Source of the DNA: Thozetella sp. PMI_491
Lineage: Eukaryota; Ascomycota; Sordariomycetes; Chaetosphaeriales; Chaetosphaeriaceae
Direction: 5' to 3'
Length of the DNA: 64,000 bases
Assembly (NCBI GenBank): GCA_021432635.1
Contig: MU270024.1
Coordinates: 806,001 to 870,000 of the forward strand
A model generated the notes under the pieces. It did no database searches and was not told the DNA's origin. It saw only the letters and a list, made by a program, of their open reading frames with translations. The translations under genes were made by a program, and so were the position numbers. Shown here in pieces: positions 4,197 through 59,362 of the stretch (its first letter is position 1; every line of letters starts with the position of its first letter).

Positions 4197-4250
4197 CTGC
4201 AAAGCGGTCAATATCGGACAGTCGTTAACTGGACATCTATATACTATACT

Positions 4251-13466: not shown

Positions 13467-15866
13467 TCACAAGAATGACTGCGATAGGAAACCGCGTAAC
13501 ATGTCCAAAATTTCCCCAGCTCTCCCACAGGGCGACTGAGATAGGTCGCTCTCATCCAGCGTGAGTCTTGAAACAAGATCGTCAACCATCTGCTCTAATG
13601 TGGTTGTATATAATGCCTCTAGCCCTCGCTCCTCATCTTGAACTTTTTTGTAATCTCTCAGGCCCTTATCCTTTAGGAATCTTGCGACAAGTCGCTGTCC
13701 GTTATTTGCCCAGTAGTCGCGTAGAACGCCAACGGCCAACTCGGTATTTCTCATCAGGTGCGCCCTTGCAGGTCGGTCAACACCTCGAAAGACAATGTCC
13801 CAGACAGCGAACCACTGCTCCTCGGCGGAGAACATCGGGTCTGGTTTCCGCGCAAGCTGTTGCATCTGGTTCTCGGAGATACCATCAGGGGCACGTGACG
13901 GGCGTAAGGGACATGACCTGGCTATAATATGGCGATTGCACACCTCTGAGGTAAGGAAGGTCTCATGGCACATCGGGCAAGATAGAGGGCGCCGATGTGC
14001 AATCCAGAGATGCTTTTTTACGTCGCTAATAGTCTGGAGGTTGGCACGCGTCAGACAAGTCTGGTACATCTGGCAATCGTAAATATAGAACGGACATGCG
14101 AATGCAGGCGATGCAACGAGTCGATGACTATCAACAAGGACGTTTTCTTTGTCCTCTGGATTAACAAGCTGCTTTCGAGTGTCGAATTCAATACCAGAAT
14201 CGTGCTGGGGCTTGCAAGACTCATGCGTGGGGGCAATAGCGCCGTCTTTAGAAGGGTTGCTGGAGATGTAGGAAGCGAAGTTTCTAATGGCGAATTGTGA
14301 GAGTTCATCTTTGACTTTCGCAAAAGGGTGTTCTGAGTCTAAGCTGGGTTTCTCTGGAAGGACAGAGGTAAATAAATCCATGTCATCCTCCGCGTAGTGA
14401 TCATCTGTCGTTGACGAGCATACAGTTGATAGCCGCGCATCTTCATCGTCCGAGTCGCCTGCGTGTAGAGGCTCCTGGAGAATGCCATCACGGTCAGTTT
14501 GGTCGAAATCAGGCGGATAGGTCTGTGTGGTGGAATCATCCAAGTCCCTCATACATTGGATTTCCTCTACGGAGTAATCGTGGCTGATAGCAGAGTCGAG
14601 CCCTCTTCCGCTGTAAACAGATGGGGGCTGTCCGAAAGCAGATATTGTAACAGAAGAAGCTTGAGAACCACACGAAAAGGCAGTTTTACTGTATTTATCT
14701 TCCGGCCTAGGTGAGTTCTGTGTGACTGAAGTGTTCATGGTAAATGGAATGACGCGAGGTTCATCATTGGCACGCCTTATGTTTATAGAATCCCTGGGTT
14801 GTATTTTGCGAGGAACGAGTATCTTTCGCGGGGTTGATACGTTTATTTGGCGGTGATTAAATATATGATCCGATGTATATCGTACGAAACGGTGGGACTG
14901 AGCCTGAAAGGGTACTCCAAGACAAGTGGTTCCGTCCTCGGTCTGAAGTTCCAGTACGAGAGTTTGATATAGGCCCTCTATGACGCCGAAGCTAGCATCG
15001 ATAATGAAACCCCCAGCACTCACGTATATATGGCCTTGAATATGAAGTGGTGCAGTGATAGATGTATCTGCAAAGTGACTGAAATCCGAAGGAGAGGTAG
15101 CGAACAACCCTCGATACTCCGGACTGCCTGATGACTGCCAAGCTAGAATTGTTGCGTCGTCTGTAGCTCTCAAGATTTCGTCTTGCAGTCGGAGGAATGC
15201 TATTGGACCTTCTCCGTAAATGATCGACATGTTCACTCCAAATATTCCCAAGAGTGAATAGGCAACATCTTCAGGTAATGTAGCTTGGCGATGAGCTGCC
15301 CAGGACATCTTTCGCCCGACCGAGAAGTCGGATAGGCATTCGGAACTCTCTAAAGCAGCTACGTCCACCTTGGTAATATCAGACAAGAGGGATAAAAGTA
15401 ACCGCTTATTGCCGATTGGAGTCCACTGGCTGTCGTAAAACTCGACCGATTGAGGCGCAATCAGTTCTTGAAGAGTCCAGCAGCGTTGCAACCAACCGCA
15501 GCCACGAAGCTGACTTTCAAGATCCTCTTGGACATAATTAACATCGTCGAGGTACACAATGCACACTTGGCAGTTTTGAAACCAGCGGAAATTGGAGTTG
15601 ATAGCTTCGGACAGCTCTTCGGTCGAACTTTTGTCTACGCAGGCTGTGTGGGCCCAGAGCCAGCTATATCCGAGGCCTTGTGCCACAGAGCAAGCAGTTT
15701 TGACTTTTTCATCATCTGAGTCTGAAGGATCCGAGGTGTCGCTCATCGAGTCCACCCAGAAGACGTCGCCTTCTTTCCAACAAGAGGACAGCGCCGCATA
15801 GGGAGGAATATGTGTAGCACTGCGGAACGTGTAGAGTTGTAATGTAGCCGTGCATAGGAGTTTCAT
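13467..15866 (-). CDS. HET domain fused to an atypical double zinc finger
   Basis: Single exon, 799 residues, ATG at 15866. Residues 1-240 are a HET domain of the HET-D/HET-E class: IPPYAALSSCW, CVDKSSTEELSEAINSNFRW, GWLQRCWTLQELIAP, and the LPEDVAYSLLGIFGVN and IYGEG blocks. Residues 240-585 are a linker, acidic and Ser/Asp-rich from about 450. At 589-652 lies the array's zinc-finger module: C-x12-C-x14-H-x4-H, then C-x2-C-x12-H-x5-C. The module continues with EEQWFAVWDIVFRG (683-696) and a helical tail with TLEQMVDDL. HET-D/E-class HET domains usually sit in front of NACHT-WD40 receptors; here the zinc-finger module takes that place. The open frame across the junction argues against an artefact. 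Cell-death signalling is expected of the HET part; the role of the zinc finger is unknown. Confidence 0.88.
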   Translation of the reverse strand: MKLLCTATLQLYTFRSATHIPPYAALSSCWKEGDVFWVDSMSDTSDPSDSDDEKVKTACSVAQGLGYSWLWAHTACVDKSSTEELSEAINSNFRWFQNCQVCIVYLDDVNYVQEDLESQLRGCGWLQRCWTLQELIAPQSVEFYDSQWTPIGNKRLLLSLLSDITKVDVAALESSECLSDFSVGRKMSWAAHRQATLPEDVAYSLLGIFGVNMSIIYGEGPIAFLRLQDEILRATDDATILAWQSSGSPEYRGLFATSPSDFSHFADTSITAPLHIQGHIYVSAGGFIIDASFGVIEGLYQTLVLELQTEDGTTCLGVPFQAQSHRFVRYTSDHIFNHRQINVSTPRKILVPRKIQPRDSINIRRANDEPRVIPFTMNTSVTQNSPRPEDKYSKTAFSCGSQASSVTISAFGQPPSVYSGRGLDSAISHDYSVEEIQCMRDLDDSTTQTYPPDFDQTDRDGILQEPLHAGDSDDEDARLSTVCSSTTDDHYAEDDMDLFTSVLPEKPSLDSEHPFAKVKDELSQFAIRNFASYISSNPSKDGAIAPTHESCKPQHDSGIEFDTRKQLVNPEDKENVLVDSHRLVASPAFACPFYIYDCQMYQTCLTRANLQTISDVKKHLWIAHRRPLSCPMCHETFLTSEVCNRHIIARSCPLRPSRAPDGISENQMQQLARKPDPMFSAEEQWFAVWDIVFRGVDRPARAHLMRNTELAVGVLRDYWANNGQRLVARFLKDKGLRDYKKVQDEERGLEALYTTTLEQMVDDLVSRLTLDESDLSQSPCGRAGEILDMLRGFLSQSFL

Positions 15867-17322
15867 GTTTCATGTCGACGAGGTGTTAAAATTGAATAAA
15901 GACGGAATATATGATTTTCTTTCTTTTTTTTTAAAGAAAAGGGTTGATGAGATATAACCTTGCGAAGAATTCCAAATTTAAGGGGGGTTATATAGGCTTA
16001 CATATCCTTCCCCCTCCAACCAGCCACATCGCATCGGCACAAGTGGTGCCCGGGTATAAACACCACATCAAGAAGGTTGTTTGCCCCTCACCTGCACGTG
16101 ACAGTAAAGTTTTTAATGTGAATGACAAACAAATCTCGATTCAAGAGGCGATTTCCAAATACCTTTAGCATCCCGATCCTAGCACTCGGGTGCATGGAGG
16201 AAGATCGGCACGCCGTACTGGGGGGCAGCGTAACAACCCCAAATTCACAACATCCTTCATCCATAGGTCAATGGTAGCTTTGTTATGAAAGATAAGTGGC
16301 CACAAGGCTGCGCACAAGGCTGCGCACAAAGTGGACACATTTAACTACCTACCGAACATGTCAAACTCACCGAGCAGCCTACCTGCGCCTTGCTCAAGGC
16401 AAATGCGATTGATAGGGCAAAAATCTCCAGATATCACTTTTTCGGAGCATAATGGTAGGGCTGGAGTGCATTTATCTGTTAAGGGCTATATCTTGCTCAA
16501 ATCATTTCTCACAGCCGACACACAAAAAACTGCTGAGCCTCGGCGACCGTGCTTTGTCTGTGTGCATGGATTCACTCAACAAACGAGGCGGCATCCAACT
16601 GTGTTTATACAGCAAAGCAGGAACTAATGGCGTTATGGAATAACATGGGATGCAGGATAGAGAGCCTAGCCCTATTTAGATAGTATACCTCTTTTTCTAG
16701 TCTTTCTACTAGTTATTCCTATCATCCTTTCGAAACGTGTCATGTTACTTAGCCAGCCCGCCATTTACCTTCGTACATGAAAATCATTACCTACCTGGTC
16801 AAGGAAATCAACAGCGTGTTCTATGTAAATAGAATCCTTAGATCCATTCTCGTAGCCTCCCTGTAGTGACATGAACATATATCCATAACATGCCTCTGTA
16901 GAAGGTCGCAAAGCCAGTACGTGTGACATCTAGATGAGACAGCAAAATAGAAAGGCCACCCAAGCTCTCATTTATAACAGCACAAGAAGCGATGGAAATA
17001 CGGATGAAATAAACCCGACAAATAAAAAGTTACGAGGTCAAAGGAATACCAGAGTCGTGTCCCACAGTTCGAATTGACCGCTACAAGCCAACGAACCCAA
17101 TCCACTACAGAAAGCAGCTCGAAAACCTCGTGACGCTGTATTTCAAACATAATATCAGCAAGGATTTCTGTGAGAGAATAAATAGAGGCTTATGGAGAGT
17201 TTAGAAAGTCAGAAAGGGGGTTGCCGGGGTGCCTACGGTGAAGGTTTGAGGTATAGTACCAAGATATGGAGATGATCCCGTTGATATATCGCAGCGATTG
17301 AAGTGATGCCCATTGCTCAGTT
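15867..17322. other. Gene-free stretch in the zinc-finger array
   Basis: About 1.45 kb of upstream DNA of the HET-zinc-finger gene and 3' flank of the next. Includes a poly-T/A run near 15920-15940. No coding relic recognised. Confidence 0.5.
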
Positions 17323-19035
17323 CTAGTTAGGTAGGCTTCCCGAAGAACCTGACGTGTCCGTGCCGTTGTATCCGTTCGGATCGCGTAGTTCCTCGGAAGG
17401 TTCGTTACGGTACCACGCTCCTTCTGAGTGTTCATCGAGCAGAAGGAAAGTAGAAGTATCACTGGCGCTATTTGAAAGAATAATACTGGGAGTCGCGGGC
17501 AGGTCTGCCCAAGCGTTTTCTGGGGGCGCTGCCGACAAGTTGGATGGGAATCCTGCTCGTGCCGAAAGGTCGGACGTGTCGAAGTCGGCAGACACTTGAC
17601 TCGATTCACCAAGGCTCAGCCATGGTGGCTGTGCTGAGAGACTTTGGTTGTTGATATAGGGATTTGCTATGCTTTGGAGATCGTCGAAATGTGGCTGGGC
17701 TCCTGAAGTCTGTGGCGGGATGCGTTCGAGTTCCACCAGTGCTGCAAAGTCGCCCGTGTTTAGGTTGGAACCATAAGTCGCCAGGCTCGGCCGATCTAGG
17801 ACTATCCTTGACAGCCGTCCCAGGGCGTTATGGATGTTATTGTCGCGATATAATGTATCCTGGGAATTGCTGGAGTCCGGCTGGACAGCTATGTGCTGGT
17901 GTAATACGGTGATGATGGGAACGACAACCTCGTGCAAGGCGGGGATCAAAGGATCGCCTTGCGGTAGACGAGTCATTTGCTGAATTTGTTGCATGAAATC
18001 GCCACTAGCTATATGGAGCGTGGTTTCGGCTTCCACGAACTCCACGGCCTCGGTTCGACGATAAGTAACGTATGGCGACATCGGGTGGGGTACGCCTGGG
18101 AACAGGATGTCCCAGATCTCGAACCATCGCTCGACTTCTTGCCGTGGAGTGCGATCTTCACCGCGGGCTCTAATCTCAGATACCTGTTCACGGGTCGCTC
18201 CTGGAATATTGAAGTCTCTCTGCTGGCAGTTGGGTTGCCGGACATGTTGATCACGAAGCTCATCATTTTCGAAAATGTCGCCACAGGTAGGGCAGTGAGG
18301 TGGCTGAAGATGCTTTCGATAGAGATGCTGTCGTACGTCACTAACGTGTCTAAACTTGTGTCTCGCACATTCATGATATTCTTCTCTGTCGAACTTGTAA
18401 AAGTGACAGGCGAGAAACTGCCCCTCGGAGCGGTTCCTACTGCTAGAGGGAGATGTCTTACACCGCCGCCTGCTCCTTCCCTCAGATGCGCGACCCAGTC
18501 GCTTCTGTACTTTGTCGCTGGGCCTCTGAGGGTTGTTGAGCAGGGATAGACAAGAGGTCAAGTCTTGGGTATGACTGTACCCCTGGCAGACGCCCGTCTC
18601 ATCTTGATCTTCGGGGCTGCGGGGAAAAGAAATAAAGAAAGCTCGATATATTTCAGCAGTCAGAGGCTCTTGTGGGCGACCACGTGTCCAGTCTGCTCGG
18701 TAGAGACCCAAGCATGTTACGATCAAACGATGCTTGATAGGATTCGTGGTATCAGGCGGTCCGGCTATTTGATCGTTGCCGATAGCTCTATCTGGCTTCT
18801 CGCCAATTGCTTCGTCCGGTCGGTCCTCGTTTGTGCTAACCTTGTCGCCGGCGAAAGTTGTGGCCGTTTCGTGCACGGTGGCTACATCGGTTCGTCGGAG
18901 ACGATGCTTGGAAAAAGGGTTGCTTCGAAAGCTGGAAGTGATGCGCGAGATGGTGGAAGCCTATCGTCCGATTAAACAGGTCAACCAGTCAGTGCTAGGG
19001 GAGCCGTCAAGAAGTATAGTAACCTCCTCGGGCAT
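17323..19035 (-). CDS. Zinc-finger array protein (paralogue B)
   Basis: The long open frame 17323-18960 has no ATG at its front. It opens right after a good acceptor (gatag) at 18961-18962. A short first exon, ATG at 19035 to 19024 (MPEE), with a 63-base intron 18961-19023 and a branch-like ctgac, restores a start and gives about 549 residues. The polar basic N-terminal half is followed by the finger module from about residue 186: C-x12-C-x13-H-x4-H, then C-x2-C-x12-H-x5-C. Next come ERWFEIWDILFPG and MSPYV, then a long Ser/Asn/Gln-rich tail. An additional intron ending at tttccccgcag in the N-terminal region is possible but could not be fixed in frame. Same strand as the HET fusion. Nuclear or regulatory role is only inferred. 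Confidence 0.72.
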
Positions 19036-21591: not shown

Positions 21592-23211
21592 ATGAGTCCT
21601 ACAACTATTTCGCAATCTCCGTTTCCTGAAAGTGACACGGATGATTCGAAGCCATCCGATGGTAATTGTGCTGAAGCAACCTTTAGTATGTGGCCGTTTG
21701 GGCTACCACAGCTTTCTACAGACGCTAGTTCAAGCTTCGCCGGCGCCTTGAACAATGCGTACTCGCTTCCCAATATCGTTGAATCGCCATTTACCCTAGA
21801 GTCTTTGACTGACGAAACCGAGAACCCTTGGACAGCCGCCGTTGGAAGCCAAGATCAATGTGTTCCTTGGATTTTGGGTTCAGACTTCCCGAAAGCGACA
21901 GGTATGTCACCTCTATCACTATGCTCTAGCAGTTTAGTTTATACTAAAGGACGCCCGGAAGAGTATACAGATTGTATCTCTGCTTCGAACTTGACAGGAA
22001 AACCTGTGGGCTCCGAAACACTAGACTGTGAGCCTCGCGACCCTCGCGGCGATCCATTCTCAACGGACGTGGAAGAGATGCCAAATCCAAACCAAGAATA
22101 TTACCGTTCTTTGAAAGCTAATCCAGGAGCTGTTGTCAAGGTGCTCCAGCCACAAAGCGGTAGCTCCGTTGAGGGCCATGATGCACTAAGTACGGCCAAA
22201 GAAAGAAAGAACAAGTCGAGGCAGCCAACAAGATTTGATCGTGCAATGGATACGGTCAAGCTGAACAAGAGATCACATCAAGCAGCATTTTCTGATGCTG
22301 ACAAGTCGAATTTTGATGACAGCCGCCCTATGAATGCGCGTCGGCGGCGAACTAATGACAGCGACCACTGCCCAACCGAATTTCTCGCTTGCCCTTTCTA
22401 CAAGAAAAATCCTCTACGCCACTATGCCTGTCTAGGATACCAGCTGAAACGCATCAAGGACGTCAAACAACATATCTACCGCAAACACAGCAAGACTAGC
22501 CAAGATTACTCCTGCGCCTGCCTACAGTTAAACAGAGCAGAGCGCCGGAAGGAACACACTAGTACAACGAGCTGCAAGGAGCAAGAGCCTCTAGAGAGCG
22601 ACTGTAGCCCCGTCGTACGAAAGACGTTATCAACTCAATACGCCTGCCGAGGCCAATCTCAAAATGAGCAATGGTTCGGGATTTGGAATACTACTTTTCC
22701 GGGAGCAACACGGCCACACTCCATACATGTCGAGAGTCACCTAAAGGAGATGATGGCGCTATTGCGAATATTCTGGAACAAGCAGCAACATGTAACCGTC
22801 TCGACTTTGTTTGGAAGCCCCGAGGTCCACGGAATAAGTTACGAGACTCTCGATTGGGTCATTGGAGCTTCTTTCAAAGAATTCGAGGAAATGCTGCCAC
22901 GTGCAGTTACTGAGCTCGAGAGTGGAGTCGATATAGAGGACGACACGGGGTTTGCGACATTGTCGGCCGTTGACGTTGTGACCACACATCAACAAACGAC
23001 TTCAGAACCATCAGGTACACATTTCTTTACAAAGGCTAGCATTCTAAATATGCTGACACCCGTAGGTGCACGCTTTTCTATTGACGGAGACTCTTGTATC
23101 GAGCGCAAAGACAAGTTCCCCGCTATAGATTTCGAGGAAACCCAGTCTGTAGTTGACTACAATGTCTTAACGGACTTTTTCAACCTGTCGGAGTATACCA
23201 TTTTACCGTAG
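21592..23211 (+). CDS. Zinc-finger array protein (paralogue C), second finger degenerate
   Basis: ATG at 21592 gives 539 residues without a forced intron; a small intron near 21900-21940 is possible (a GTATGT donor is present). The N-terminal half is acidic and Ser/Thr-rich with no domain seen. The finger module starts at about residue 264: C-x12-C-x13-H-x4-H is intact (ACPFYKKN, DVKQHIYRKH). The second finger has C-x1-C in place of C-x2-C and a spacing of 11 before the histidine. It is followed by NEQWFGIWNTTFPGATRPHS and a helical region. Compared with A, B, D and F, the altered second finger suggests weakened zinc binding. Divergent from B; the gene looks open and probably expressed. Confidence 0.75.
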   Translation: MSPTTISQSPFPESDTDDSKPSDGNCAEATFSMWPFGLPQLSTDASSSFAGALNNAYSLPNIVESPFTLESLTDETENPWTAAVGSQDQCVPWILGSDFPKATGMSPLSLCSSSLVYTKGRPEEYTDCISASNLTGKPVGSETLDCEPRDPRGDPFSTDVEEMPNPNQEYYRSLKANPGAVVKVLQPQSGSSVEGHDALSTAKERKNKSRQPTRFDRAMDTVKLNKRSHQAAFSDADKSNFDDSRPMNARRRRTNDSDHCPTEFLACPFYKKNPLRHYACLGYQLKRIKDVKQHIYRKHSKTSQDYSCACLQLNRAERRKEHTSTTSCKEQEPLESDCSPVVRKTLSTQYACRGQSQNEQWFGIWNTTFPGATRPHSIHVESHLKEMMALLRIFWNKQQHVTVSTLFGSPEVHGISYETLDWVIGASFKEFEEMLPRAVTELESGVDIEDDTGFATLSAVDVVTTHQQTTSEPSGTHFFTKASILNMLTPVGARFSIDGDSCIERKDKFPAIDFEETQSVVDYNVLTDFFNLSEYTILP

Positions 23212-23967
23212 ATTAGGATGAGTTTTGCGTTGATTTGCAGAGTTATCGTAGCTGTGAGGATCATTTTTTAAAACGGAATATTCACCTAGGGGCTATTGGA
23301 ACAAGCAGCACATGCAAGGCGACCGAGACTTCTATAGTTCATGTACATAGGCAACCTGATTCCTACAACCTCCAGGTCTAAACCATTGCCATATTTCTAC
23401 TTCATGTTAAGAACATCCTAGACGCGCAAAACTTCCACTCGCAACCGTATATATAAGTATCCAGATTACTTATAGATCCATACGACTGCGTTCCGTAGCC
23501 TACCACAACCGCCAACGTGCTCGGCGCTAGTGCACTCGGGTCGGCCTGAATGTATCAGATAAACTTCGCGATAAGTATTGTCCATTAACATTTAAAATTG
23601 GAGGCACCTGTTACAGTTCGAATTATCAACTTCTTGGACAGAAGGGTCGCGAGAACAAGGATCATCAGTAAACTAGAAGAGAGAATCGATATAGCTAACG
23701 ATCCTGGGCTTGGACTAAGGGGCAATACACCAGGCTGCATGCTAAACATCGAGGCCGAGAGAGCAACTGGAGAGAACACCTGGAATTTGACATTGCTTCT
23801 TAGTGGCAGTCTATATAAATACCGAACTTTAACTTACAACTATCAATACGGTCAACGCCTTCGTATACTCGGTTGACTTTTGCTGAGATGCCGCAGCCTC
23901 ATTGCTCGCAAGTAGTAAATGAAGCTCTAGCTGTAGGACCACAGTTTAGAGCATAGCCTTGAGGCCT
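23212..23967. other. Gene-free stretch
   Basis: Spacer between paralogue C and the next relic. A 92-codon frame at 23598-23876 has no recognisable character. Confidence 0.5.
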
Positions 23968-24733
23968 TTAAGCCGTCTTGCGACTTACGTCCTTTGCAAA
24001 ATTCTCACACTGAATTGTGAGATACTCCAAAGTCTTTTGGAGAGACAGCAAGCTCTTGAATGCCGCATTAATCGCCAGGCAGGACCGAGAAGCTCCCGGG
24101 CATAGGTCAGAGAAATAAGCCGCGTCCTGTTCGCTAAAGCTGTTCCAGCAAGTAAGAGTGATGGAAAGCCTTTCATTAAGCTGTGCTAGAAGCCTTCGGG
24201 TATTGATGATCCAGTCTCGCGCCAAAACCTTACTTCCCGGTAGCCAATTCTCACTTGCAGGGTCCGGAAGTCGATAATTGATCGTCTGCCATCGATTAGC
24301 CAAACCATACTTCAACGCCAAGGAATTATCAGACACGTGCGTATTCGGTAATTTTAGATTCTAATTTGTCGACAATACAAACCCATTCTTCCCTTACTTG
24401 GGTTATTCTAACCTCAAAAACTCTTACAAAGTAGTCTCGAGGCGCCGTGATCGGTTTATCGGCATCGCTTTTGCCCAGAACAAGTGGATCGGGCCGCATA
24501 CCATCCAAGGCGTCGCTATGATACGATTCCACACTGTCTTGAGTCGCTTGCCCGTCAAAATATGTATCGACAAAGCAATATGCAACCCACTTCCAGTGGT
24601 CCGTGCCAGTGATAACGCAACTGACCTGGGCTTCGTGGAGATAGTCTATCTCCTCCTGTCGAGTATCTTCTTCGTATTGCAGACTAAGGAACTGCAGAGA
24701 TTTAGAATGCCTTAGCCTTCTGTTATCCGTCAT
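23968..24733 (-). pseudogene. Frameshifted member of a fungal-specific family (W-x2-YCFVD type)
   Basis: Starting at ATG 24733, the frame reads SLQFLSLQYEEDTRQEEIDYL, then HEAQVSCVITGTDHWKW and AYCFVDTYF, then PRDYFVRVFEVRITQVREEW. I recognise this order from a common, uncharacterised Pezizomycotina family often met near HET and NLR genes. At about 24330-24336 the frame breaks by one base and the homologous C-terminal half (ANRWQTINY, WIINTRRLLAQLNERL, TLEYL) continues in the neighbouring frame to the stop at 23968. No splice signals fit the junction, so a single-base frameshift is the simplest reading; a sequencing error would restore a normal gene. Confidence 0.6.
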
Positions 24734-25214
24734 TGAGCAGACATGATTTCGTGTCGGCGATCTCCTCCATACGTAATACGACAGATGAAGTTCTAGCTGA
24801 AATGTGGCCACGTTATTGGACTGCGACAATCAGCCGAGGAGGTCCCAACCGCGGAAATGCGATACTACTACATACAGGTATAGCCACACACATGGCTGTT
24901 TTAAACGAGATATATCGGTATATCGCAGAGCGTAGAGCTGATACTTGGAGACATGACGCGGTGGCTATGAGTACAAGAATACTCCAGCCATCAGGATCTA
25001 CAATAAACCTAGGAGTGATTTAGCAGCCCGGATGTCTAAGAACTATTCCAAGTACCTCCTATGCTTACACTAGTCGTCTATCCGCATCTGGTTCTTCAGA
25101 GCCTGTCGCCTCGCTCCTATTGGAGAGTTGTAATTCAGCTTCAGACCGACTAGGACTTGAGTGTTGGGATTTTTTCTTCAGGCATATGTTGAACCGCTGT
25201 TGGATATCTTTCGG

Positions 25215-25685
25215 TTAGTTATCCGATATATATGGACATGTTGCCACGCGACTAACAGGCTTCTTCAGTTGCTTGTACAACCCGGACACTGTGAGTGGAC
25301 CGAGATATGCTCTGGAATTTGTAACCCCGTCTTCACTGCTTCTGTCATCCAGCAAAGCACATGGTGTTTCGAATGTAGAACGGTGGTAGCCCCCCGGTGC
25401 TGCTAAGGCTTCTAGGTTGAGGCCGGCACAAAAAGCTTCAATGGTTCGAAGCTGGCAGTTGTAGCTCTCAGAGCCCTCTGAGTCCATCATAAAAGAGCGA
25501 ATCATAGTTTCTATAGCGTTTAATTCACTCCTTAGTTCTACGTACGGCTTGTTTTCCATTTCGTAAGCGAGAGTGCGCGGGCTCGCGAACATGGGATCCC
25601 AATAAGCAGAAAAAGAGCTTTGACGAGCGCAGGCTGGCATTTCGGAGAATTTCACGGGATAAAGAGACCCTGGAATAAGAAACAT
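25215..25685 (-). CDS. Unrecognised protein or gene fragment
   Basis: A 156-codon frame from ATG 25685 with a coding-like composition (for example WDPMFASPRTLAYEMENKPY and an amphipathic stretch after it). Beyond its stop the same frame continues with plausible coding sequence (DIQQRFNICLKKK), so an intron or a nonsense change near 25215 is possible. A second coding-like frame on the same strand, 26180 to 25956 (LTEEKEQILLDVCKSRPM), may be an upstream exon of the same gene. I recognise no family. It may be a live gene with introns I cannot place, or a relic. Confidence 0.3.
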   Translation of the reverse strand: MFLIPGSLYPVKFSEMPACARQSSFSAYWDPMFASPRTLAYEMENKPYVELRSELNAIETMIRSFMMDSEGSESYNCQLRTIEAFCAGLNLEALAAPGGYHRSTFETPCALLDDRSSEDGVTNSRAYLGPLTVSGLYKQLKKPVSRVATCPYISDN

Positions 25686-26180
25686 TCAAAGGTGACAACT
25701 ATACGGATCTGAATTTCTTATTTGGTAGGGAGATTTTTGCTGGCTTTCGACGTTTCCAAGAGAAGAGAGACAAGATGGGGATGGGACCTGCAGCAGCAAA
25801 TAGAGGTAGGCGCAGCGTAATATACCCTGATTTTGGCAAACTCTGAAAGGCTCTGTCGCTCCGCCCATGATTTTCCTACTAGAAGCCAATCGAGTCTTCC
25901 GGTCTGGAGCCTTATTGTACTCGCACCTTCTTTACTGGACAATATTCGCAACGTGCTATAGTGCAATTTGGGCACAGCGCTGTTGTGATAGGTATGCGCG
26001 CATAGCCACATTGGCACTGCCTCTTAGGCATAAGCACAAGACGATAGAGGATGCCATTGGTCTAGACTTACACACATCCAAAAGAATCTGCTCTTTTTCT
26101 TCGGTGAGCTCTAGGCATTCAATGTGTTGGTGCTCAGCGAATAGAGTAGCGAGAGCTGAGCAAGGGGGTAATATTACCAT

Positions 26181-28627
26181 AGTGGAGGTAATGCTTCACC
26201 CCGATTGTGCAAGGACAGTCCTAGGTGCGCCGCCCCGGCGTCAGGATCCAATATCGAACCCGGAGAACGGAGCGAAATAGCAGGGAGGTGCTGTTCTTAG
26301 AGCACGGCTGCTTGAACTTTAAAAGACTGGGACGGGCCCCGTATGCTTCAGATGGCGTTGGTTCCCGAAGTCACTCTCGAGCAGCCGGCCTATTTTTGTA
26401 CGAGCCGAGGAGCACAGAGCGTCGCTACTGTCTCCTTCCTTTTCGAGGACCAGCACACAATTCTTGTAGAGTCTTGCTGACGTAGGAGAGCTTGTCCGGA
26501 AAGTTGCAAAACAAAACAGACAGGTAATCGGCTATATCCCTTTTACTTCGAAGTGGTTCAGCTGGCAACCGCAGAGAGCTTTATCTATGGAGGAGAGAGG
26601 AATAGTATCCCTGATCAAGAATCTCTCGGAATATAAAGTATTTTAAAGTTTGCAGGAGCAAACCCTTTGGCGCTGTGGTGTTGCACCGGCGTAACGACGG
26701 AAGATTTATCTATCATTGTGATTTCTACTCATGAGCTCGAGAGGGCAGGCCGACCTCGCAACTGGATATCACCGCAGTGGTGGAACAGCGAAAAAAAGGA
26801 AAGATCGACCGTAACAGCTGTGGAAAAAACCATACTGTCATCTAAATGAGTCAGAATTAGCGCCCGTAGCTCACCTGATTCTATGTTTCCACCACTGTCC
26901 ATTCATAATCCCGTGATCTTGGGTTCCCGCTTGAGGTCCTAGCGAGCGACACCCGACACAAATGGGCGACACCATTGCTTTAGCTACAATTGTCCATCCA
27001 CTTGATGTGAGGGAAGCTCGTTGTCGGACCAGTCCTGTAGCCTCCACGCGATTCTTGCTGCTATGCAGGCGTCATCAAGTAACTAGACTTACTACAGCCC
27101 TAGGCGACTCTCATAGCTCCATGGAGATCGCAAGCCCAACTAACAAGAAAAGGGTGTTGCGCGGAAGACGCCCTGGAATTGGAACTTAGCAAACTCGACA
27201 GGGTTCACTCCACCACCGAAAGTTATGTCAAATACCTCTCTAGTGACTCTATATTAATTAGCACTTAGCATTAAGTCGTGTGAAAGCTTGCTACGGGTGT
27301 CTATTAGTGTTAATACCTCTAATAGTTTATTATACGTGGGTAGACTTGAGCTGTATAAGAGTTCGTGCAATATCTATGAGTGCTACTAGAACGGACACCT
27401 CCCCATTTTGGGCACTATGAGCGCGGTTAGCACTGATTTAATATATCCTTACAAACTTAGCGAAGATAAGAAAGTCAATCTTGTCATAAATGAGACTCTT
27501 GCCCCTGGACACAGTCCTGGTTAGGGCGCACAAGGTGGAAAGCGAGGGAGAGGTAAGTTAATCGAGACCAATCCAATGCGCTGGCGAGCGAATTACGGAC
27601 AGGACTTACAAGGCCATGTTCTGAATTAGTTGCCTTGTTGTTATAGAATTATATGAAAAGCTAGCCGACAGAAAAGATTCAGTTTCTACATTAACTGGGA
27701 TCTAGCCATAGTTCATATCGAGTAAATTCGTGCTAGTTCGGCTTCACTTCACCTATGGCACATGGACTGGCGAACTAAATCCTCCGGCGGTATCGACACT
27801 ATGTTTCGATGTCGAGGATGGCTTGGCTTGGCTTTTCTAGGCTTGACTGTGCATAGAATATATGTATATTAGCGTATGGCGGTACGCCACGGATCGCAAT
27901 CATATAGATACATGCACTCTGCAAATGTTTGTGAACCTATTAACACGCATTGGATTGCTATAGCGGTAATTTGAAAGACATATTTGGAATGAGACACGAT
28001 AACTTACAGGTAACTAACACTACAAGGCTTGCTCACAATCTGACGCCCCCTAGCTGCACTGCTCGGCGCTGGAAGACGCAATGAAATTGTTTACGCAGTA
28101 GCCTGCCGCAGCCTCCTTTCATTCGATTCAGCAATAAGAAAGTGAAGCTAAGGTTGATTTTAACATTCTGCCTAAGACCGACCATGAGATCATTTGAAGA
28201 AATAGCCTCATATGGAACGAGGGTTGTATAATCGTGCCAACGGTACAAAGCCGCAAGAGCTCCGCCCTTTTCGGGCACAAGGCTTACTGATAACCTATTG
28301 GTGCACCAATTTTCGAAGCCTCGCAGTTCTTGATATATAAATTTTATGGCTTGCAGCCGTTTGCCTCATAGATTTCCTCCCGTCCTCAGCCTTCTCTCCT
28401 TGCTACTATCTCATTCCTACTGTCCTCTCCCCTTGTTCAATTGTTCCACTCCTGTCTCTGCAATATTGCTTTATCACGTACGGAATATCATCTAGATTTT
28501 GTCTCACGACGTCGGAATATCGGATTAGTTAAAAATTCAGTCAACACAGCACGATCCTTGTCAAGTCATTCACCTCAACTTTAGACGTTTCTTTCCAAGC
28601 CCACTATTTCCAATCAACCCAGCTAAA
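26181..28627. other. Long gene-free stretch upstream of paralogue D
   Basis: About 2.4 kb with scattered short frames and no recognisable domain, transposase or RNA gene. A tRNA-like string around 26860-26940 does not fold (see rejected items). Confidence 0.5.
28370..28470 (+). promoter_or_regulatory. Pyrimidine-rich upstream tract of paralogue D
   Basis: A CT-rich tract (repeated cctcc, cttctctcc, tcctctcccc) lies 160-260 bases before the ATG at 28628. Such CT boxes just upstream of transcription starts are common in expressed filamentous-fungal genes. It supports paralogue D being an active gene. Confidence 0.5.
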
Positions 28628-29866
28628 ATGACTAACCTGTTTGGTACCAAAGTCTTGCCTATCAGGGCGAATAATTTTAATACGAATGACACTATTGATG
28701 AAGTCAACCTGCATGTCCTAGGAGATAAACCCGGCCCCATAGAAACCCTCCAAGGAGCTCTGGGTGAAGGCACCAGGCAACTTCTGGAGACAGACCACGT
28801 GCCGGACGGCTCTGAGGAGCCAGAACTGTCCCAAACATATTTCTCTGAAAACGAAGAGTCCGAGTCGCTGTCAGAAGACGACGATTATCACAGCGTTTTT
28901 GGCGTGCCGCTACATGACAACCGGGCTCTTGATGTGGACCATCCTCTGTTTGGTTTCACTCCGGAACTAACGAGAAGTGTTCTTGAGCACTTATCGAACC
29001 CAAATCAGCCTCCCATTATAACCGACAATCCGCCCACTGTCTTCGATACTCACGATGGCAAGGGAGTCTGCGATAGTTCTTCCACTTCTGTACCGGCTAA
29101 GCGATCCGTGTCGCCTGCCCAAGGAAAGCGCTGGGATAGTCAGGAGCTGGAACAAGAGACAGACAGCGAAGATGAAAATACCGTTTTTGTCAACAAACGC
29201 TCCCAGCTGCCCCATTCGAGAGGTATCAACTTTGCCTGTCCGTTTGCCGTGCGATTCCCCGACAAGCACCACGCGTGTTTCGTGCACATCTCGCTGCCCG
29301 ACATGTCTTCTGTCTCCCATCACGTCTGTGGCGCCCACCGTCGGCCATACTACTGCCCCGTATGCTATCGGTTGTTTGACACGGGCGCCGAGCGGGACAA
29401 CCACGCGCGCTGCCGGATCTGCAGTTTGCAGGCGTCCACATCGATTGAGGGTGCCACAGAGCAGCAGATGAGGACCATAGCGCTGGGGGAACGAGAGCTA
29501 GCGGCTGGGAGAAGTGGCAACCAGGAGGGCCTATGGTTCTCGGCCTACGAAACGTTGTTTCCCGAGGATCCGCGACCGCCCACAGCTTACTTGCACCCGT
29601 ACATCGACGTGGTGGTGAGCGCATTCCGCAAATACTGGCTCAGGTGCGGCACGAAGGTTGTGTCGGACTTTCTAGCAGTGAGGGCCCCAGGCTGCTGGGA
29701 AGGGCCGGCCCACGAGAAGGCGCGGGAGTCGCTACAGGCGACAGTCCTGGAGCAGATGGTGGATGAGGTTCTCGGTCCTAACTGGTGGTCGGCTGATAAG
29801 GCGGGCGACGCAGGAGAGTTCCTGGCCCACTGGAAAGCCTCCCACTCTCGCTTGCATGTATCGTAA
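28628..29866 (+). CDS. Zinc-finger array protein (paralogue D), closest to the HET-fused member
   Basis: Single exon, 412 residues. Residues 1-200 are acidic (FSENEESESLSEDDD) and carry an ALDVDHPLFGF motif that matches SLDSEHPFAKV in the linker of the HET fusion. The finger module begins at residue 202: C-x12-C-x14-H-x4-H, then C-x2-C-x12-H-x5-C, all ligands present. The W block is altered (LWFSAYETLFPEDPRPP). The C-terminal helix has VLEQMVDEV, again matching TLEQMVDDL of the HET fusion. D therefore looks like a stand-alone sister of the HET-fused protein. GC content in the second half is higher than in the surrounding DNA. Acidic N-terminus plus zinc finger would suit a nuclear protein, but this is inference. 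Confidence 0.8.
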   Translation: MTNLFGTKVLPIRANNFNTNDTIDEVNLHVLGDKPGPIETLQGALGEGTRQLLETDHVPDGSEEPELSQTYFSENEESESLSEDDDYHSVFGVPLHDNRALDVDHPLFGFTPELTRSVLEHLSNPNQPPIITDNPPTVFDTHDGKGVCDSSSTSVPAKRSVSPAQGKRWDSQELEQETDSEDENTVFVNKRSQLPHSRGINFACPFAVRFPDKHHACFVHISLPDMSSVSHHVCGAHRRPYYCPVCYRLFDTGAERDNHARCRICSLQASTSIEGATEQQMRTIALGERELAAGRSGNQEGLWFSAYETLFPEDPRPPTAYLHPYIDVVVSAFRKYWLRCGTKVVSDFLAVRAPGCWEGPAHEKARESLQATVLEQMVDEVLGPNWWSADKAGDAGEFLAHWKASHSRLHVS

Positions 29867-30535
29867 GGTGGTACTTGATTCTGTTGATCTATTTCTCCCA
29901 TAGCAGATCTGATCGAAACATCGGCTATGTTCCTCTTGGCCATACTTATATACCTCGTTTCCCTAAGAGTATATTCCTATCTGGCCAGTAAGCATCTGAC
30001 TATTGGATATGAGGGGATTGGCGTTCGATAAATTGCTGAAGTTTGGAGCGTCCTGTAGACCTTTATTGATCCCTTCTTCCTTTTCAGCGACTTCCACAGG
30101 ATGTCCAACACCTACTTTTACGAGCGGAGTGAGTGGAGGCCTTGGGAGTAATTAAGCACGGCATTCCTAATATTATGAAATAAGTACAGCTAGAAAATCT
30201 GAAACGTAAACAACACACAATAGGAAACGTAAAAAGATATTTACACGCAGCGACAAGCAATTCACAGTGGCCGCGCCCTCCTAGCCCAACACTTCGTACA
30301 CTGCGACGCCTTATTTTCAGTAGCGCAAAATTTGCGCAACTAACTATCGCCCTTGTGGAAATTGAACAGATAGATGCCGGTGGTTATTAACTCTGGGCTG
30401 GCAGGTTGAAATCCAACACCTCTCAGAGAACACGATACATGCTCTCCTAAACACAGTCAGTTTTGTACTTGCTGTGTATACTATTAGAATATATGCCCTT
30501 ATTGGCATTGTTCGCGACTAGATATCAGTGTATTC
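29867..30535. other. Spacer between convergent paralogues D and E
   Basis: 3' flanks only; no coding or repeat signal recognised. Confidence 0.6.
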
Positions 30536-32115
30536 CTATCTCGATGCCACGATATGCGGAGCAGGAAAGCCCACGGCGTCGCTTGTATTTGCCTCCTGTG
30601 AGGTTGAGATTGGTGGGTTCCTTTGCCCTGATAATAATGTTGGGGCGGAACAAGGGGTACATCCTACCGTATTTGGAGACTTATCCATGCCCTTCGTTGT
30701 ATCAATCTCGAACTCGTGGAGAAAGCTAGCTACGATTCGGTCGATCCAGCGACGGTCCGCATCCGTTACAGTGCGGCCAATTTCCTCCTGTGTTGTCTTG
30801 TCTATGATGCTGGAAGCCTGTGCCGCCCAGCAGCAGCGTATGCGCTCGATCGGCTGCTCGAAGTATCCTCCTACGTATGCGGAGCGAGGTTGATTTTCGC
30901 CTGGGAAGAGGATATCCCATATGTCGTACCACTGATCCTCTGGCGACTTGACGCCACTGATATATTGCTTAAGTTTTAAAATCTGACAGTCCGAGACTTT
31001 CGGGGCACGAAGTGTTTCAACGGACTCGTTGTGGTAGTCGTCCAGGTTAATATATGTATACGAGTTCTTGCCGGAGTCCCATGTGTTGTCGAGCCTCGGG
31101 GTACATCGCAGGCAACGAAGCCGGAGTTGAGAATGTTTACGGTATATGTGCTGTCGGACATCCTTGGGTCGACGTAGTTCGTAACGCAGACACTTGGCAT
31201 GCATCTGACAGTCTGATTTGTAGAATGGACATGCTAGCAGGCGTGTGCTTAAACCGTTATGGCCTTTCAACGCTGTTGTCTTTGTCATGTGCCGGGAGAT
31301 TCTCTTACCACCGAAATCCTGCTTTCTCTTGCCTAAATGTCGGTCGCTGTTCTTTGTATATACCCTTTTGCGTTGAGCAATGTCCACTCTGCGTCTTGTT
31401 TCAATGCTCTTCTCTACATTATCGGGCGAGCCGGCGAGAGAGGTGCAACAGGAATAGGCGTGATCAGTGGGTCCCAATGGTAACTATGAGGCTTTAAGAT
31501 TAGCTTCGCCATGCTATATAATTCCCTGACTTACCATCTGAGTCCGCATGTCTGCTGGAACCGCCGGAGTAGCAAGTGCTGGTTTGGTATGAGTACTCTT
31601 TCTCGCGAAACCTCCGTCCGAGTCCGAAACTTCGCTTGAGCCCACATGATGCTGATCCTGGGCATTGCTGTTTGCGGACCTGCATCCTGGAAACGCACCG
31701 CCCTCTTGGCAGTCGGTTCTCGGCGGTATGCTTCTTGTACTAGCTTCGACTGACTCGCTACAGTTGTCTGGGTACAGCGACCAATCGGTTTCTTCAGCCC
31801 AATGCCAGTTCACGTCCGATTGCCAATCACAGCTCCAATTCGTGCTTTGGCTAACCGCCTGAACGTCGCTCTGGGACTGTCCCGGAGCCAGATCAAAAGG
31901 CTCTTCGGACTTGGGGAGGGTTATGGGACACCAGTCCATGAAGCTGTCTGATTCCGAGTCCAAATTGTCCTGAATAATTTGGCTGATTTCGTTTTCTCCA
32001 TTCTGGATGGTCTATAATCGTCAGAGCAGGAGCAGGAGTGACTGGAACAAGGGACTAGTACCCTATCGACGATTACCTCCTTAGGTACCGCCAAGCTGCT
32101 GTATTCGCTACCCAT
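30536..32115 (-). CDS. Zinc-finger array protein (paralogue E), three exons, second finger lost
   Basis: Exons 32115-32062, 32011-31535 and 31483-30536 join in frame to 492 residues; both introns (50 and 51 bases) have GT-AG ends. The N-terminal 180 residues are acidic and Trp-rich (DWQSDVNWHWAEETDW). The finger module starts at about residue 259: C-x12-C-x13-H-x4-H is intact (ACPFYKSD, DVRQHIYRKH). The second finger keeps only a C-x2-C pair (CLRC) and then diverges, so its His/Cys half is missing. The downstream block EDQWYDIWDILFPGENQPRSAYV is well conserved. It is convergent with D. The intact splice sites and conserved C-terminal block suggest that the loss of the second finger is tolerated. 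Confidence 0.78.
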
Positions 32116-33870
32116 AGCTTGAGCTGTCGTTGGTTCTCGTGGGTAAGTGGAGATTGTGTAACAACCCTAGCTTGCTTCTCTCCGTCTCGTTACTGGTCGT
32201 GTCAACGAAGCCGCACTAATCAACAGTTGCTGCAGTGCACTGGCCAGCAATAACGTATGGTATAGAATTGACTCTGGTCGCTGGGTGTAATCGAGTAACT
32301 ACCAAAAGCTGGAGACCTATGCCTACAATTTGCAAGTCCGTCCTGTATATCTTCGCTGCCATCCGGCCGAAGCAATGGATTTCCGACCCATTAAAGGCTT
32401 ATGCGACAGACCATGCTAGGTGGGACGCCGCCGAGGCTCAATTATTCACATCGGAAGACTTCGTACCCTCCCACCCGCGGGGTGGCTCGGTAAGTCGGCC
32501 GTTCGGAACTCCGTCTGATGAGCCGGGGTCTCTGCGATAGGCTTTCAGATGTCTTCTGATCGGCGGTGGTGCATAGGCACCGGCGCCCAAAACACGAGGG
32601 TGAAAAACGCTAGCTTCGCCTAGCTTAATCAGGTGCTGCACACCAGCGCAGCGTCGCATTTCACAGTTGTGTTTAGGCACAGCTGTGGCTGATATCACCC
32701 TCGCCGAGGCTGTGCCGTTCCTAGATACCATAGTAGGGTGAAAGTACTCCGTACCGGGTGCGGCTTATCTACGGAAGAGGTTCAACCGCTCGTCGTCCGT
32801 TGGCCGTAGCCGCGAGCTGTCAGCCCGACGGCGGACGGACCCCGTAACGGCAAATGTAGGCCGCAGTGCCCGGGTAAGCAGGGCTTCCACGCGGATGGAA
32901 GGACATGAAGTTACGTTCCTGGGCATTCTGTGACCGCACCTAGGCCAATCTTGAATGATTGGTTAGGCTCTACAGGCCACCAACCCCCAACCCCCGACAG
33001 TCCAAATACTTAGGGGGCTGTGGTGGCCAACAATTGCAAAAAGAAGTATGTTCCGCCCAAAGATCGACTTCGGCCAATAGGTATCGACAGCCATTCTGCC
33101 TAGCATGCACTGCCGTTCATATCAGAGCAGGCGGAGTCTACACCGATGCGCGACAAGCAAGAACGCCACAAAGTTTAGACTTGATGCCGACTCGCAGATA
33201 ATGCGGTCTCGGTGCACTCGCACCGTTGTGTTCGCTCATGCGGTTTGTTAGCACAACGTCTTTCGCTCATACCGAAACCTGGCGCGAGATTTGCAACTGT
33301 GTTAATAATATTTACCCCTATCACACTTGTTCTGCCGCTTTCGGGGACATCTAAATTTTGAAGCGACCCCGGGGAGCCCCCGGGGAGCCCTCGGGGGGCC
33401 GACTGAAGCCACAGATGCTGCGAAGAAGCCGACCTACGCAGTTGTGGATGCCGGGCTCCTCGTCATTGGCGACCGCTTATGGCAAGAAAACAATTGATTG
33501 AGGCTTGGGCCTTTGAGCCTGGATTATACCCAGCCTGATTCGTCGAGAGCGCCAGCGGAGAAATCGTGAGGTTCATAATGTTGATCAACAAATGCGACGG
33601 TGCACTACGCAATTGTGGTGAGAGACGATGGTGAAAAAGACCCCGTGGCCTTCATTACACTCCTTCGTACGCAGTGGTGGACATACTATCTTTTATATCG
33701 TGTGTTTGAGGGTTCCAAGTGTGGTCTCGCTTTGCTGTATAATAATGTATAAGAACCTGGCCAAGGCTTCGGCCCTTGAGCTTCATTGCCCTGGCATCAA
33801 AGTCAAAAGCACCAGAGTAAACATTTACACCATTACCTCTCAGTCTGAACCATCGGAACCATTCGAGACA
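32116..33870. other. Gene-free stretch, GC-variable
   Basis: Spacer between divergent paralogues E and F. Contains a GC-rich run (cggggagccc repeated) at about 33365-33405 and several open frames without family character. The in-frame upstream extension of paralogue F (33628-33870) is hydrophobic and unlike its relatives, so I leave it out of the gene. Confidence 0.45.
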
Positions 33871-35205
33871 ATGAATCTCAATTCTCCTTTCAGCGTCTCC
33901 TCGCCGTTAGCCCTGGCCCACCTGAGAGTCGCCGCGTGCTACCACACCGACAGGCAGAGGAAGCAGCCGCTCTGCATCTCCCGCGCTAGGTCGCTTGAGG
34001 TCTCCTGCGGCGACAAGACTCGAGATAGGGGCCGGGATTCCAATTACGACTTCGATCGCCGGGCTCTCGTGAGCATCATCTTGTCGGTGCAGACCTACAC
34101 CTTATCTATGCAGCGGGCTGGGCACACATGGGTGCAGCTCGGTGAAATTGTCACATTCCTGGTCGATACGCGCAAGACTGTTAATGGAGACAGCCCAGAT
34201 GCGGCAGCTGGAGCTCCCAGACACTACCATGGCTTCAGTACAAGTGGCAATCGAGATACCAGGAATAAAGAGAAAGCTCAAAGTGTCCCGGGAAACAACG
34301 GCCCAGGCCGTTCTGGAGACAACTCAGGGCGCGGCGATGACACACCCTCTTCTGCCAGCGGCGACGATCCGGGCCCGCAGTTTGCTTGCCACTTTTACAA
34401 AAAAAATCCTTCCCAATATCGCATGTGTTTGCGGTACAATCTGACAACTGTTTCAAGAGTGCAGCAGCACCTGAAGCGGTGCCACACACCAATCCTCCAG
34501 TGTCCCACTTGCCGCTGTACATTTGGAGAGAATCAGTGCGATTTTGACGAACACTTGCGAGCGCGAAGCTGCCAATCGCGGCTGCTACCGCTCATGCCGG
34601 AGAGGGCACTAAGCGAGGAGACATGGCGCAGTATCACGGCAAGGAGGCGTACTCCACACCAGAGTGCTAGGGATCGTTGGTATGTCATCTGGACTATCAT
34701 ATTCCCTGGAGAGCCTTTACCACCCTCTCCGTACTACACGGTCAATGAAACCACCCAGCAGCTAGTCGCACTCAACAACCACTTCATCGAGAATGGCTAC
34801 GGCCGAAGCCTTGTCGACGATATCATGCAGCTCCTGTCTCCCGAACTGCAGGTCATAGGGTATGATTTGATCCGCCGCTTACTTCGAGCTGCTGCTGAGC
34901 ATGCTGAAGATCAGGGCAATAACCAGCACCTCCTCTTATCGTCTACTGCACCCGCCCCTTCCCAGGCACCCATGCCAGGGAGTGGACAGGTTCAACCGCA
35001 CCCGGAATCGCTTGAGCCATACGTTGGTATAACCGGGCAATTAACAGCCACCACCGACGCAGGCACCATGGACCGGGTCAGCCTCAATACGCTCGGCCAT
35101 CTAGTCGAGGACAATGTCTCGTTGATAGAGTCGGAACTTTATGATTATTTTTCAGGTTTATGCGACGTTAATCCATGGCCATCATTTTCTGAAGAGGAGC
35201 AATAG
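33871..35205 (+). CDS. Zinc-finger array protein (paralogue F)
   Basis: The frame is open from 33628, but the ATG at 33871 (MNLNSPFSVSS) is preferred, giving 444 residues. The N-terminal 170 residues are polar with a Gly/Asn/Arg-rich stretch just before the finger; a small N-terminal intron ending near 34193 cannot be excluded. The finger module begins at about residue 171: C-x12-C-x13-H-x4-H, then C-x2-C-x13-H-x5-C, all ligands present. RDRWYVIWTIIFPGEPLPPSPYY follows, then a helical region (LLSPELQVIGYDLIRRLLRAA) and a Pro/Gln-rich tail ending in an acidic segment. It is the last member of the array in the window. Confidence 0.75.
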   Translation: MNLNSPFSVSSPLALAHLRVAACYHTDRQRKQPLCISRARSLEVSCGDKTRDRGRDSNYDFDRRALVSIILSVQTYTLSMQRAGHTWVQLGEIVTFLVDTRKTVNGDSPDAAAGAPRHYHGFSTSGNRDTRNKEKAQSVPGNNGPGRSGDNSGRGDDTPSSASGDDPGPQFACHFYKKNPSQYRMCLRYNLTTVSRVQQHLKRCHTPILQCPTCRCTFGENQCDFDEHLRARSCQSRLLPLMPERALSEETWRSITARRRTPHQSARDRWYVIWTIIFPGEPLPPSPYYTVNETTQQLVALNNHFIENGYGRSLVDDIMQLLSPELQVIGYDLIRRLLRAAAEHAEDQGNNQHLLLSSTAPAPSQAPMPGSGQVQPHPESLEPYVGITGQLTATTDAGTMDRVSLNTLGHLVEDNVSLIESELYDYFSGLCDVNPWPSFSEEEQ

Positions 35206-59163: not shown

Positions 59164-59259
59164 GACTGCAATGGCCAAGAATGGCTTCTGTAAACTGTGT
59201 GCTGATGAGCCAGCATCTCGTTTTTGACCCGATCTCCTCGCTGCTCAAGTACCATAGCG

Positions 59260-59270
59260 TGCGAATCGCA
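59260..59270. promoter_or_regulatory. Palindromic TGCGAATCGCA site, divergent promoter
   Basis: An 11-bp near-perfect palindrome, 97 bases upstream of the hydrolase ATG and 335 bases upstream of the decarboxylase-like ATG. The same site recurs (reverse complement) in the promoter of the monooxygenase. A shared cis-element of the cluster is inferred; the binding protein is unknown. Confidence 0.5.
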
Positions 59271-59362
59271 GCGTCACACCCTTCTCTGAGGGGTACCCAT
59301 TCCCCTGTCTGAGTATGCTGACCGACCCAGAACACGGTGGAGTAGAGGCGGTTGGTTGACAT

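Follow-up and report, generated by a model that had tools for sequence, protein, structure and literature searches.

What is the function of a cluster of related fungal genes when one of its members is fused to a HET domain? The question is raised by a locus of the ascomycete Thozetella sp. PMI_491, located in a stretch of 64,000 nucleotides (contig MU270024.1 of assembly GCA_021432635.1, positions 806,001 to 870,000 of the forward strand), called the window below. Six genes at positions 13467-35205 of the window, numbered genes 1 to 6, carry an atypical set of zinc-finger motifs (Table 1). Sequence comparison confirms that the six proteins share a homologous module about 120 residues long. 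In gene 1 this module follows an N-terminal HET domain, and we tentatively interpret it as a binding or sensor domain.

Shared module in six genes

The module contains three recognizable elements. Finger 1, with the pattern C-x12-C-x13/14-H-x4-H, occurs in all six genes, as does a W..W..FPG-like block (the W block), of which genes 1 and 4 have imperfect versions (FRG and YETLFPE, respectively). Finger 2, C-x2-C-x12/13-H-x5-C, is found in genes 1, 2, 4, and 6. It is broken in gene 3, where the first cysteine pair has the spacing C-x1-C, and in gene 5, which keeps C-x2-C and lacks the aligned histidine and the last cysteine.

Homology was assessed by leave-one-out profiles, each built from the first 140 residues of five modules, with E values scaled to 177,635 sequences. 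All left-out modules were recovered, with E values of 6.8e-30, 4.1e-29, 1e-24, 2.9e-17, 1.5e-26, and 2.6e-28 for genes 1 to 6, respectively; they scored 66-107 bits, whereas the highest score among 3,000 shuffled modules was 10.1-12.1 bits, depending on the profile. The profile of finger 1 alone recovered five of the six (E 6.7e-14 to 5.7e-9) and failed on gene 4 (E 2.2). The W block profile also recovered five (E 2.2e-9 to 2.8e-4, 24-40 bits versus 12.6-16.5 bits for the best shuffles), and gene 4 again failed, its 10.8 bits (E 2.5) being below the best shuffle at 13.4 bits. It is only the whole-module profile that places gene 4 in the family. Finger 2 together with the linker gave a profile that recovered four modules weakly (E 1.8e-5 to 0.019), the failures being genes 3 and 5.

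In pairwise BLAST comparisons, 14 of the 15 gene pairs have E values of 5.5e-5 or better, the exception being genes 4 and 5 (E 2.9). The full profile was also compared with the 1,655 reading-frame fragments of at least 25 residues in the window. The six genes, which are in this profile by construction, scored E 1.2e-74 or better, and no seventh copy was found among the fragments, the next-best having E 2.6.

A preliminary description of the locus had claimed six genes at these positions sharing a finger and W-block module, a second finger in four of them, and a fusion of one copy to HET. The positions and patterns are reproduced here and supported by the profile statistics (E 2.9e-17 to 6.8e-30); the fusion is likewise upheld, as the Pfam model PF06985 matches gene 1 above its cut-off.

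Module anatomy and predicted fold

In the numbering of the gene 2 module, the invariant columns are A4, C5, F7, C18, V29, H32, and H37 in finger 1, C46 in finger 2, and W99, F107, and P113. Four of them are the finger 1 ligands and one is a finger 2 cysteine, a pattern expected if the metal site and the core are kept and the surface is variable. Because of this distribution, finger 1 and the W block are taken as the fixed core of the module, with finger 2 being dispensable. A C-terminal extension was considered as a further family-wide part of the module and rejected, since the similarity past residue 120 of the module is limited to the pair of genes 1 and 4 (z 15.7, as compared to 1.8 or less for the other 14 pairs).

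In the Pfam scan, all matches to the module stayed below the cut-off of the respective model. The window has 68 stop-to-stop frames of at least 130 amino acids, and the scan covered 37 of these, exon 2 of gene 5 being left out. The best C2H2-type row, zf-C2H2_4 in the gene 1 module, scores 12 bits versus a cut-off of 27. Weak rows for Phage_zn_bind_3 and E6 are far under the cut-off and were taken as chance.

Among PDB sequences, 48 match the module profile with E up to 10. Two of these have E below 0.001, namely the designed C2H2 proteins Aart (E 6.8e-6) and consensus finger (E 6.6e-5); both are whole-sequence values summed over repeated fingers, and single stretches have E 1.4 or worse. Their best stretches span profile positions 27-64 and 38-64, corresponding to finger 2 and, in one case, also to the end of finger 1. 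The remaining 46 sequences, with E 0.092 or worse, are mostly C2H2 fingers and include five p300 TAZ2 rows and one carbohydrate enzyme. As for the possibility, raised in the preliminary description, that the module is an already known zinc finger, no characterized Pfam or PDB family covers its full length, whereas finger 2 alone does resemble ordinary C2H2 fingers.

The structure prediction proposed there gave an AlphaFold model of moderate confidence for the gene 1 module, based on six alignment rows, with a mean predicted local distance difference test score (pLDDT) of 69, a predicted template modelling score (pTM) of 0.56, and, within residues 21-120, pLDDT averages per block in the range of 70-90. 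In this model finger 1 is formed by two helices, finger 2 has a beta-beta-alpha structure, and a helix runs across the W block. The model of the gene 2 module is weak (mean pLDDT 62, pTM 0.25), with the main elements ordered in the same way. Foldseek searches of PDB produced no match at E 0.001 or better for the gene 2 and gene 1 models (99 and 94 matches at E up to 10, respectively), nor did a search of BFVD with the gene 1 model (102 matches at E up to 10). Hadaka virus 1, which we take to be a virus of fungi, is represented by a C2H2-type protein among the chance-level BFVD rows listed for the latter (E 3.4, not significant); it is mentioned because zinc-finger proteins of parasites would be obvious candidates for partners of the module.

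None of the open-licence PMC papers listed in the literature searches describes the module, and six motif strings matched none of the papers searched. Unnamed proteins with such a set of motifs are presumably common in Pezizomycotina, so the family is probably already present in databases without a name.

HET domain of gene 1 and divergence of the family

The match of gene 1 to PF06985 (E 4e-5, 24.4 bits versus a cut-off of 22.5) is partial, covering positions 1-90 of the 146-position profile. The domain keeps the S-x2-W, W..C, and R-x-W-x2-Q-E motifs, which are common to the two other HET domains of the window, and departs from these two in having His in place of an Asp and Lys in place of a Gly.

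The remainder of gene 1 is related to gene 4. Residues 498-787 of gene 1 are homologous to residues 90-399 of gene 4 (BLAST alignment of 316 columns, 26.6% identity, E 3.5e-24), and the alignment takes in the acidic linker that precedes the module. The two genes are grouped in both trees built, with support of 77/81 and 96/92, as are genes 3 and 5 (92/92 and 95/94); the grouping of genes 2 and 6 is without support (49/8 and 57/29). Because gene 1 minus HET is a gene-4-like protein, HET looks to have been either gained in gene 1 or lost in the gene 4 lineage, on the background of a gene-4-like module gene. Identity among the copies is 23-39% in pairwise BLAST, and the end branches of the trees measure 0.85-2.31 changes per site; because of these distances, the family is judged to be old or very fast-evolving, and the six genes are not fresh copies.

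These data modify several points of the preliminary description. The lineage-specific expansion proposed there finds no support as a recent burst, given the divergence of the copies. The N-terminal halves, thought to be unrelated, show no similarity that stands out in 14 of the 15 pairs, gene 1 being represented by its linker (residues after 290); the exception is the linker of gene 1 and the front half of gene 4, which stand out with z 3.5, a modest value given 15 pairs tested, with 2 of 300 shuffles as good. Of the front halves, which had been called mostly acidic, four have a net acidic composition (genes 1, 3, 4, and 5) and two are slightly basic (genes 2 and 6). Finally, the front halves had been pictured as variable, with HET as one of them; this is correct in that HET is fused to one copy, but the fusion is better seen as gain or loss of HET on a gene-4-like gene.

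An inverted and rotated duplication of a block (pairs 1-4, 2-6, and 3-5, arranged as A- B- C+ / A+ C- B+) is not claimed. An equally good or better order arises in 5% of random arrangements, the idea was formed post hoc, and the pair 2-6 is unsupported.

Possible function of the module

We suggest, as the best-supported interpretation but a possible rather than a probable one, that the module is a binding or sensor domain, which in gene 1 is coupled to HET. The six genes would then belong to a single family of fungal proteins with a compact binding module at its center, probably stabilized by zinc, that binds a protein or nucleic-acid partner. In gene 1, where HET is N-terminal to a gene-4-like protein and the module takes the position of the NACHT-repeat part of HET-E-type receptors, binding would be coupled to HET-driven cell death. 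Gene 1 could thus be a guard bearing a relative of the stand-alone gene 4 function, amid other HET genes.

In favor of the sensor interpretation, finger 2 is broken in two of the six genes while finger 1 and the W block persist, and the order of domains, HET first and module last, is that of HET receptors. The homology of the six modules, their invariant columns, the AlphaFold model of the gene 1 module, the resemblance of genes 1 and 4 past the module, and the nearby HET frames are counted on the same side. According to the available text of PMC12258605, C2H2 fingers occur in 34 of 4,613 NOD-like receptors (NLRs) of Sordariales, and NLRs with any zinc finger have it at the C-terminus in 52 of 57 cases; the 16 zinc fingers adjoining canonical repeats are all of the treble clef type, other than C2H2, and the authors suggest a sensor role for NLR zinc fingers. 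An NLR of Podospora anserina with a C-terminal zinc finger is presented as a possible decoy in the accessible part of PMC5658179. Since C2H2 fingers occur in fungal NLRs according to these two sources, a role of the array in non-self recognition is plausible by analogy. A more specific version, in which the array would be an immune locus of an undescribed kind, we regard as improbable: stand-alone zinc-module proteins would be acted on by parasites or incompatible partners, and the union of a gene-4-type relative with HET would be a NACHT-free integrated-decoy guard encoded beside its guardees.

Several observations weigh against a sensor coupled to HET. The HET match of gene 1 is barely over the cut-off, whereas the two other HET frames score 90 and 103 bits, and in comparison with these it has His for the Asp of W-x-D and Lys for Gly. 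Because of these replacements and the weak partial match, the domain may be inactive. Among Pfam rows up to E 1, gene 1 has no NACHT or NB-ARC and no WD40, ANK, TPR, or HEAT repeats, so that the NLR precedent serves as an analogy for it. The accessible passages of the NLR survey PMC4986451 and of the reviews PMC10197012 and PMC12881547 do not mention zinc fingers or C2H2. Furthermore, finger 2 resembles DNA-binding fingers, and basic clusters lie just upstream of the module in three of the six proteins. Together with the acidic fronts of four proteins, these features fit a nuclear regulator about as well.

The genes could indeed encode nuclear C2H2-type regulators, with the acidic front activating transcription, the module binding DNA, and the HET fusion of gene 1 being incidental. 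The profile matches to Aart and the consensus finger, made mainly via finger 2, point in this direction, as do the net acidic front halves and the basic clusters, located at most 70 residues upstream of the module in genes 2, 3, and 5. The single-finger structure 1mey_G, among the matches listed, aligns with an unspecified part of the models at a root mean square deviation of 1.3-1.4 over 23-25 columns, but with E 4.4 and 4.9. Yet the module has one classical-looking finger only, and it is this finger that is broken in two genes; finger 1 is modelled with no strand between its ligands, two proteins have front halves that are not acidic, and in three the pattern used detects no basic cluster. 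We hold this explanation to be almost as likely as the sensor interpretation. An ordinary cluster from a large undescribed zinc-finger family of fungi, with assorted housekeeping or regulatory roles, is a less likely explanation. HET genes are so numerous (125 loci in P. anserina, as given in the available text of PMC10197012) that their nearness can be due to chance; on the other hand, HET is fused in frame to one member, and the roughly 40 kb around the array contain three HET frames.

It is also unlikely that the stand-alone genes are polymorphic partners or antagonists of gene 1 in a multi-gene incompatibility locus, where unlike alleles brought together by fusion would trigger the gene 1 HET. 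Such a locus would have a two-gene precedent in het-B of Podospora, a HET protein and an unrelated neighbor (PMC10890737, in the part available), and genes 1 and 4 are related and lie about 13 kb apart, but a known role in incompatibility is the exception among HET genes (5 of 125 in P. anserina, according to the same portion of PMC10197012). Least probable by far, in our estimate, is derivation of the module from a mobile element or virus, domesticated or decaying. The copies are very divergent and lie on both strands, and finger 2 is broken in genes 3 and 5, as this origin would allow. Against it, direct repeats are absent from positions 9-37 kb (at least 20 nucleotides) and from the window (at least 40 nucleotides), and the array has just two short imperfect inverted pairs (29 nucleotides at 76% and 21 nucleotides at 86%). 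Screens with short-peptide patterns confirmed no relative in viral contigs (62 and 45 stretches) or in bacterial and archaeal GTDB contigs (67 and 72 stretches), and tblastn of the gene 2 module alone found none in phages and plasmids. There is also no clear signature of repeat-induced point mutation, and the frames are open with the finger 1 ligands conserved. Over 32 blocks, the TpA/ApT index is 0.55-1.06 and the second index is 1.03-1.42; a call of repeat-induced point mutation needs both thresholds passed, and no block does so clearly.

Genomic context and gene models

Three HET frames, including gene 1, occur within about 40 kb among the frames scanned. The HET gene located tail to tail with gene 1 has no further Pfam row up to E 1. 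On the other side, 11.6 kb past the array, two ankyrin frames (Ank_2, E 2.5e-39 and 1.5e-18) are followed by a HET frame (PF06985, E 2.9e-29). Ankyrin repeats, a cysteine-containing stretch, and a HET domain stand in consecutive frames at 46762-50358 (forward strand), which would constitute one spliced ANK-HET gene. In Neurospora, clustering with lineage-specific genes is reported for 61% of the HET genes (PMC10684091), and fungal defence islands have been suggested (PMC10197012), both as far as the available texts go, so that this setting fits a described pattern.

Elsewhere in the window, Pfam detects Zn2Cys6/Fungal_trans, GH28, and major facilitator superfamily (MFS) genes, which together with HET give it the look of filamentous-fungal DNA. 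A Zn2Cys6 transcription factor, an alpha/beta hydrolase, a FAD-binding protein, and a sugar-type MFS transporter are encoded in a row at 55558-63684, possibly a small metabolic cluster. An inverted repeat of 102 nucleotides (4248-4349 and 4780-4881, 91% complementary, 430 nucleotides apart) could represent a small mobile element or what is left of one. The frame at 6699-8534 (reverse strand, 611 amino acids) has no Pfam match at E 0.01; it shows many hydrophobic stretches by eye and likely encodes a membrane protein. In the interval of about 5 kb separating genes 3 and 4 (23300-28600), there are four frames of 130-166 amino acids with no Pfam match above the cut-off. A frame of 277 amino acids at 40493-41326 (reverse strand) has an F-box-like match that stays under the threshold (E 0.00089, 19.4 bits versus 24.3). 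Searches of the window for RNA families and tRNAs found none.

Genes 1, 3, 4, and 6 are single open frames; one intron in gene 2 and two in gene 5 were predicted by eye from GT..AG borders. The gene 2 frame 17323-18960 contains no Pfam domain above the cut-off.

Table 1. Positions of the six module genes, their motifs, and neighboring HET genes in the window
Feature	Position	Strand	Remarks
Gene 1	13467-15866	-	799 aa; HET at the N-terminus, then acidic linker and, at the C-terminus, zinc module; single open reading frame, PF06985, profile
Gene 1 HET match	15537-15800	-	Residues 23-110; position computed from residue numbers
Gene 1 finger 1	13995-14096	-	Motif pattern
Gene 1 finger 2	13911-13979	-	Motif pattern
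Gene 1 W block	13782-13814	-	WFAVWDIVFRG; residue index 684 (counted from zero), position computed
Gene 2	17323-19035	-	549 aa; predicted intron 18961-19023 (63 nt)
Gene 2 finger 1	18310-18408	-	Motif pattern
Gene 2 finger 2	18226-18294	-	Motif pattern
Gene 2 W block	18094-18126	-	WFEIWDILFPG; motif pattern
Gene 3	21592-23211	+	539 aa; finger 1 and W block, finger 2 broken
Gene 3 finger 1	22390-22488	+	Motif pattern
Gene 3 W block	22672-22704	+	WFGIWNTTFPG; motif pattern
Gene 4	28628-29866	+	412 aa; HET-less relative of gene 1
Gene 4 finger 1	29237-29338	+	Motif pattern
Gene 4 finger 2	29354-29422	+	Motif pattern
Gene 4 W block	29534-29566	+	WFSAYETLFPE, degenerate; motif pattern
Gene 5	30536-32115	-	487 aa; predicted introns 32012-32076 (65 nt) and 31484-31534 (51 nt); finger 2 broken
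Gene 5 finger 1	31133-31231	-	Motif pattern
Gene 5 W block	30899-30931	-	WYDIWDILFPG; motif pattern
Gene 6	33871-35205	+	444 aa; frame open from ATG at 33628
Gene 6 finger 1	34387-34485	+	Motif pattern
Gene 6 finger 2	34501-34572	+	Motif pattern
Gene 6 W block	34678-34710	+	WYVIWTIIFPG; motif pattern
HET gene	10556-12850	+	764 aa; PF06985, E 2.2e-25; tail to tail with gene 1, about 0.6 kb away
Ankyrin and HET frames	46762-49420	+	Frames 46762-47424 and 47330-48499 (Ank_2), then 48500-49420 (PF06985)

Comparison with known systems

Classical C2H2 fingers of the zf-C2H2 clan are approached by finger 2 of genes 1, 2, 4, and 6, which has the C-x2-C-x12/13-H spacing and the C-P-x-C...F pattern. The module differs from them in the final cysteine ligand of finger 2, in the W block, which has no counterpart there, and in finger 1, spaced C-x12-C where C-x2/4-C is usual.

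Both the joining of HET to a binding domain at the C-terminus (PMC10890737) and NLRs that end in zinc fingers have already been published, to judge from the available texts. The function of unannotated parts of HET proteins is named as a gap in fungal immunity in the accessible part of PMC10197012. Within one array, the module occurs both by itself and joined to HET, and the fused gene has an apparent counterpart that lacks HET; this provides concrete gene pairs for the idea of sensing or guarding, and its profile would allow counting across fungi a family that has no Pfam model.

Like HET-E and the HNWD (HET-NACHT-WD40) proteins, gene 1 has an N-terminal HET and, behind it, a C-terminal part as the presumed source of specificity; unlike them, it has neither NACHT nor repeats by Pfam, and this C-terminal part is a zinc module. 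The C2H2-containing NLRs of Sordariales resemble it in the mostly C-terminal location of their zinc fingers and in the sensor role suggested for these, but they are full NLRs, and the comparison with them is made irrespective of the kinds of C2H2 fingers they carry (PMC12258605, in the part available). The BH protein of het-B, in which HET is joined to a lectin-fold domain, likewise combines HET with a C-terminal domain of binding type and adjoins a second gene, which in het-B determines the reaction (PMC10890737, same portion). The C-terminal fold of BH is a different one, and the neighbors of gene 1, in contrast to those of BH, are relatives of its own C-terminal part.

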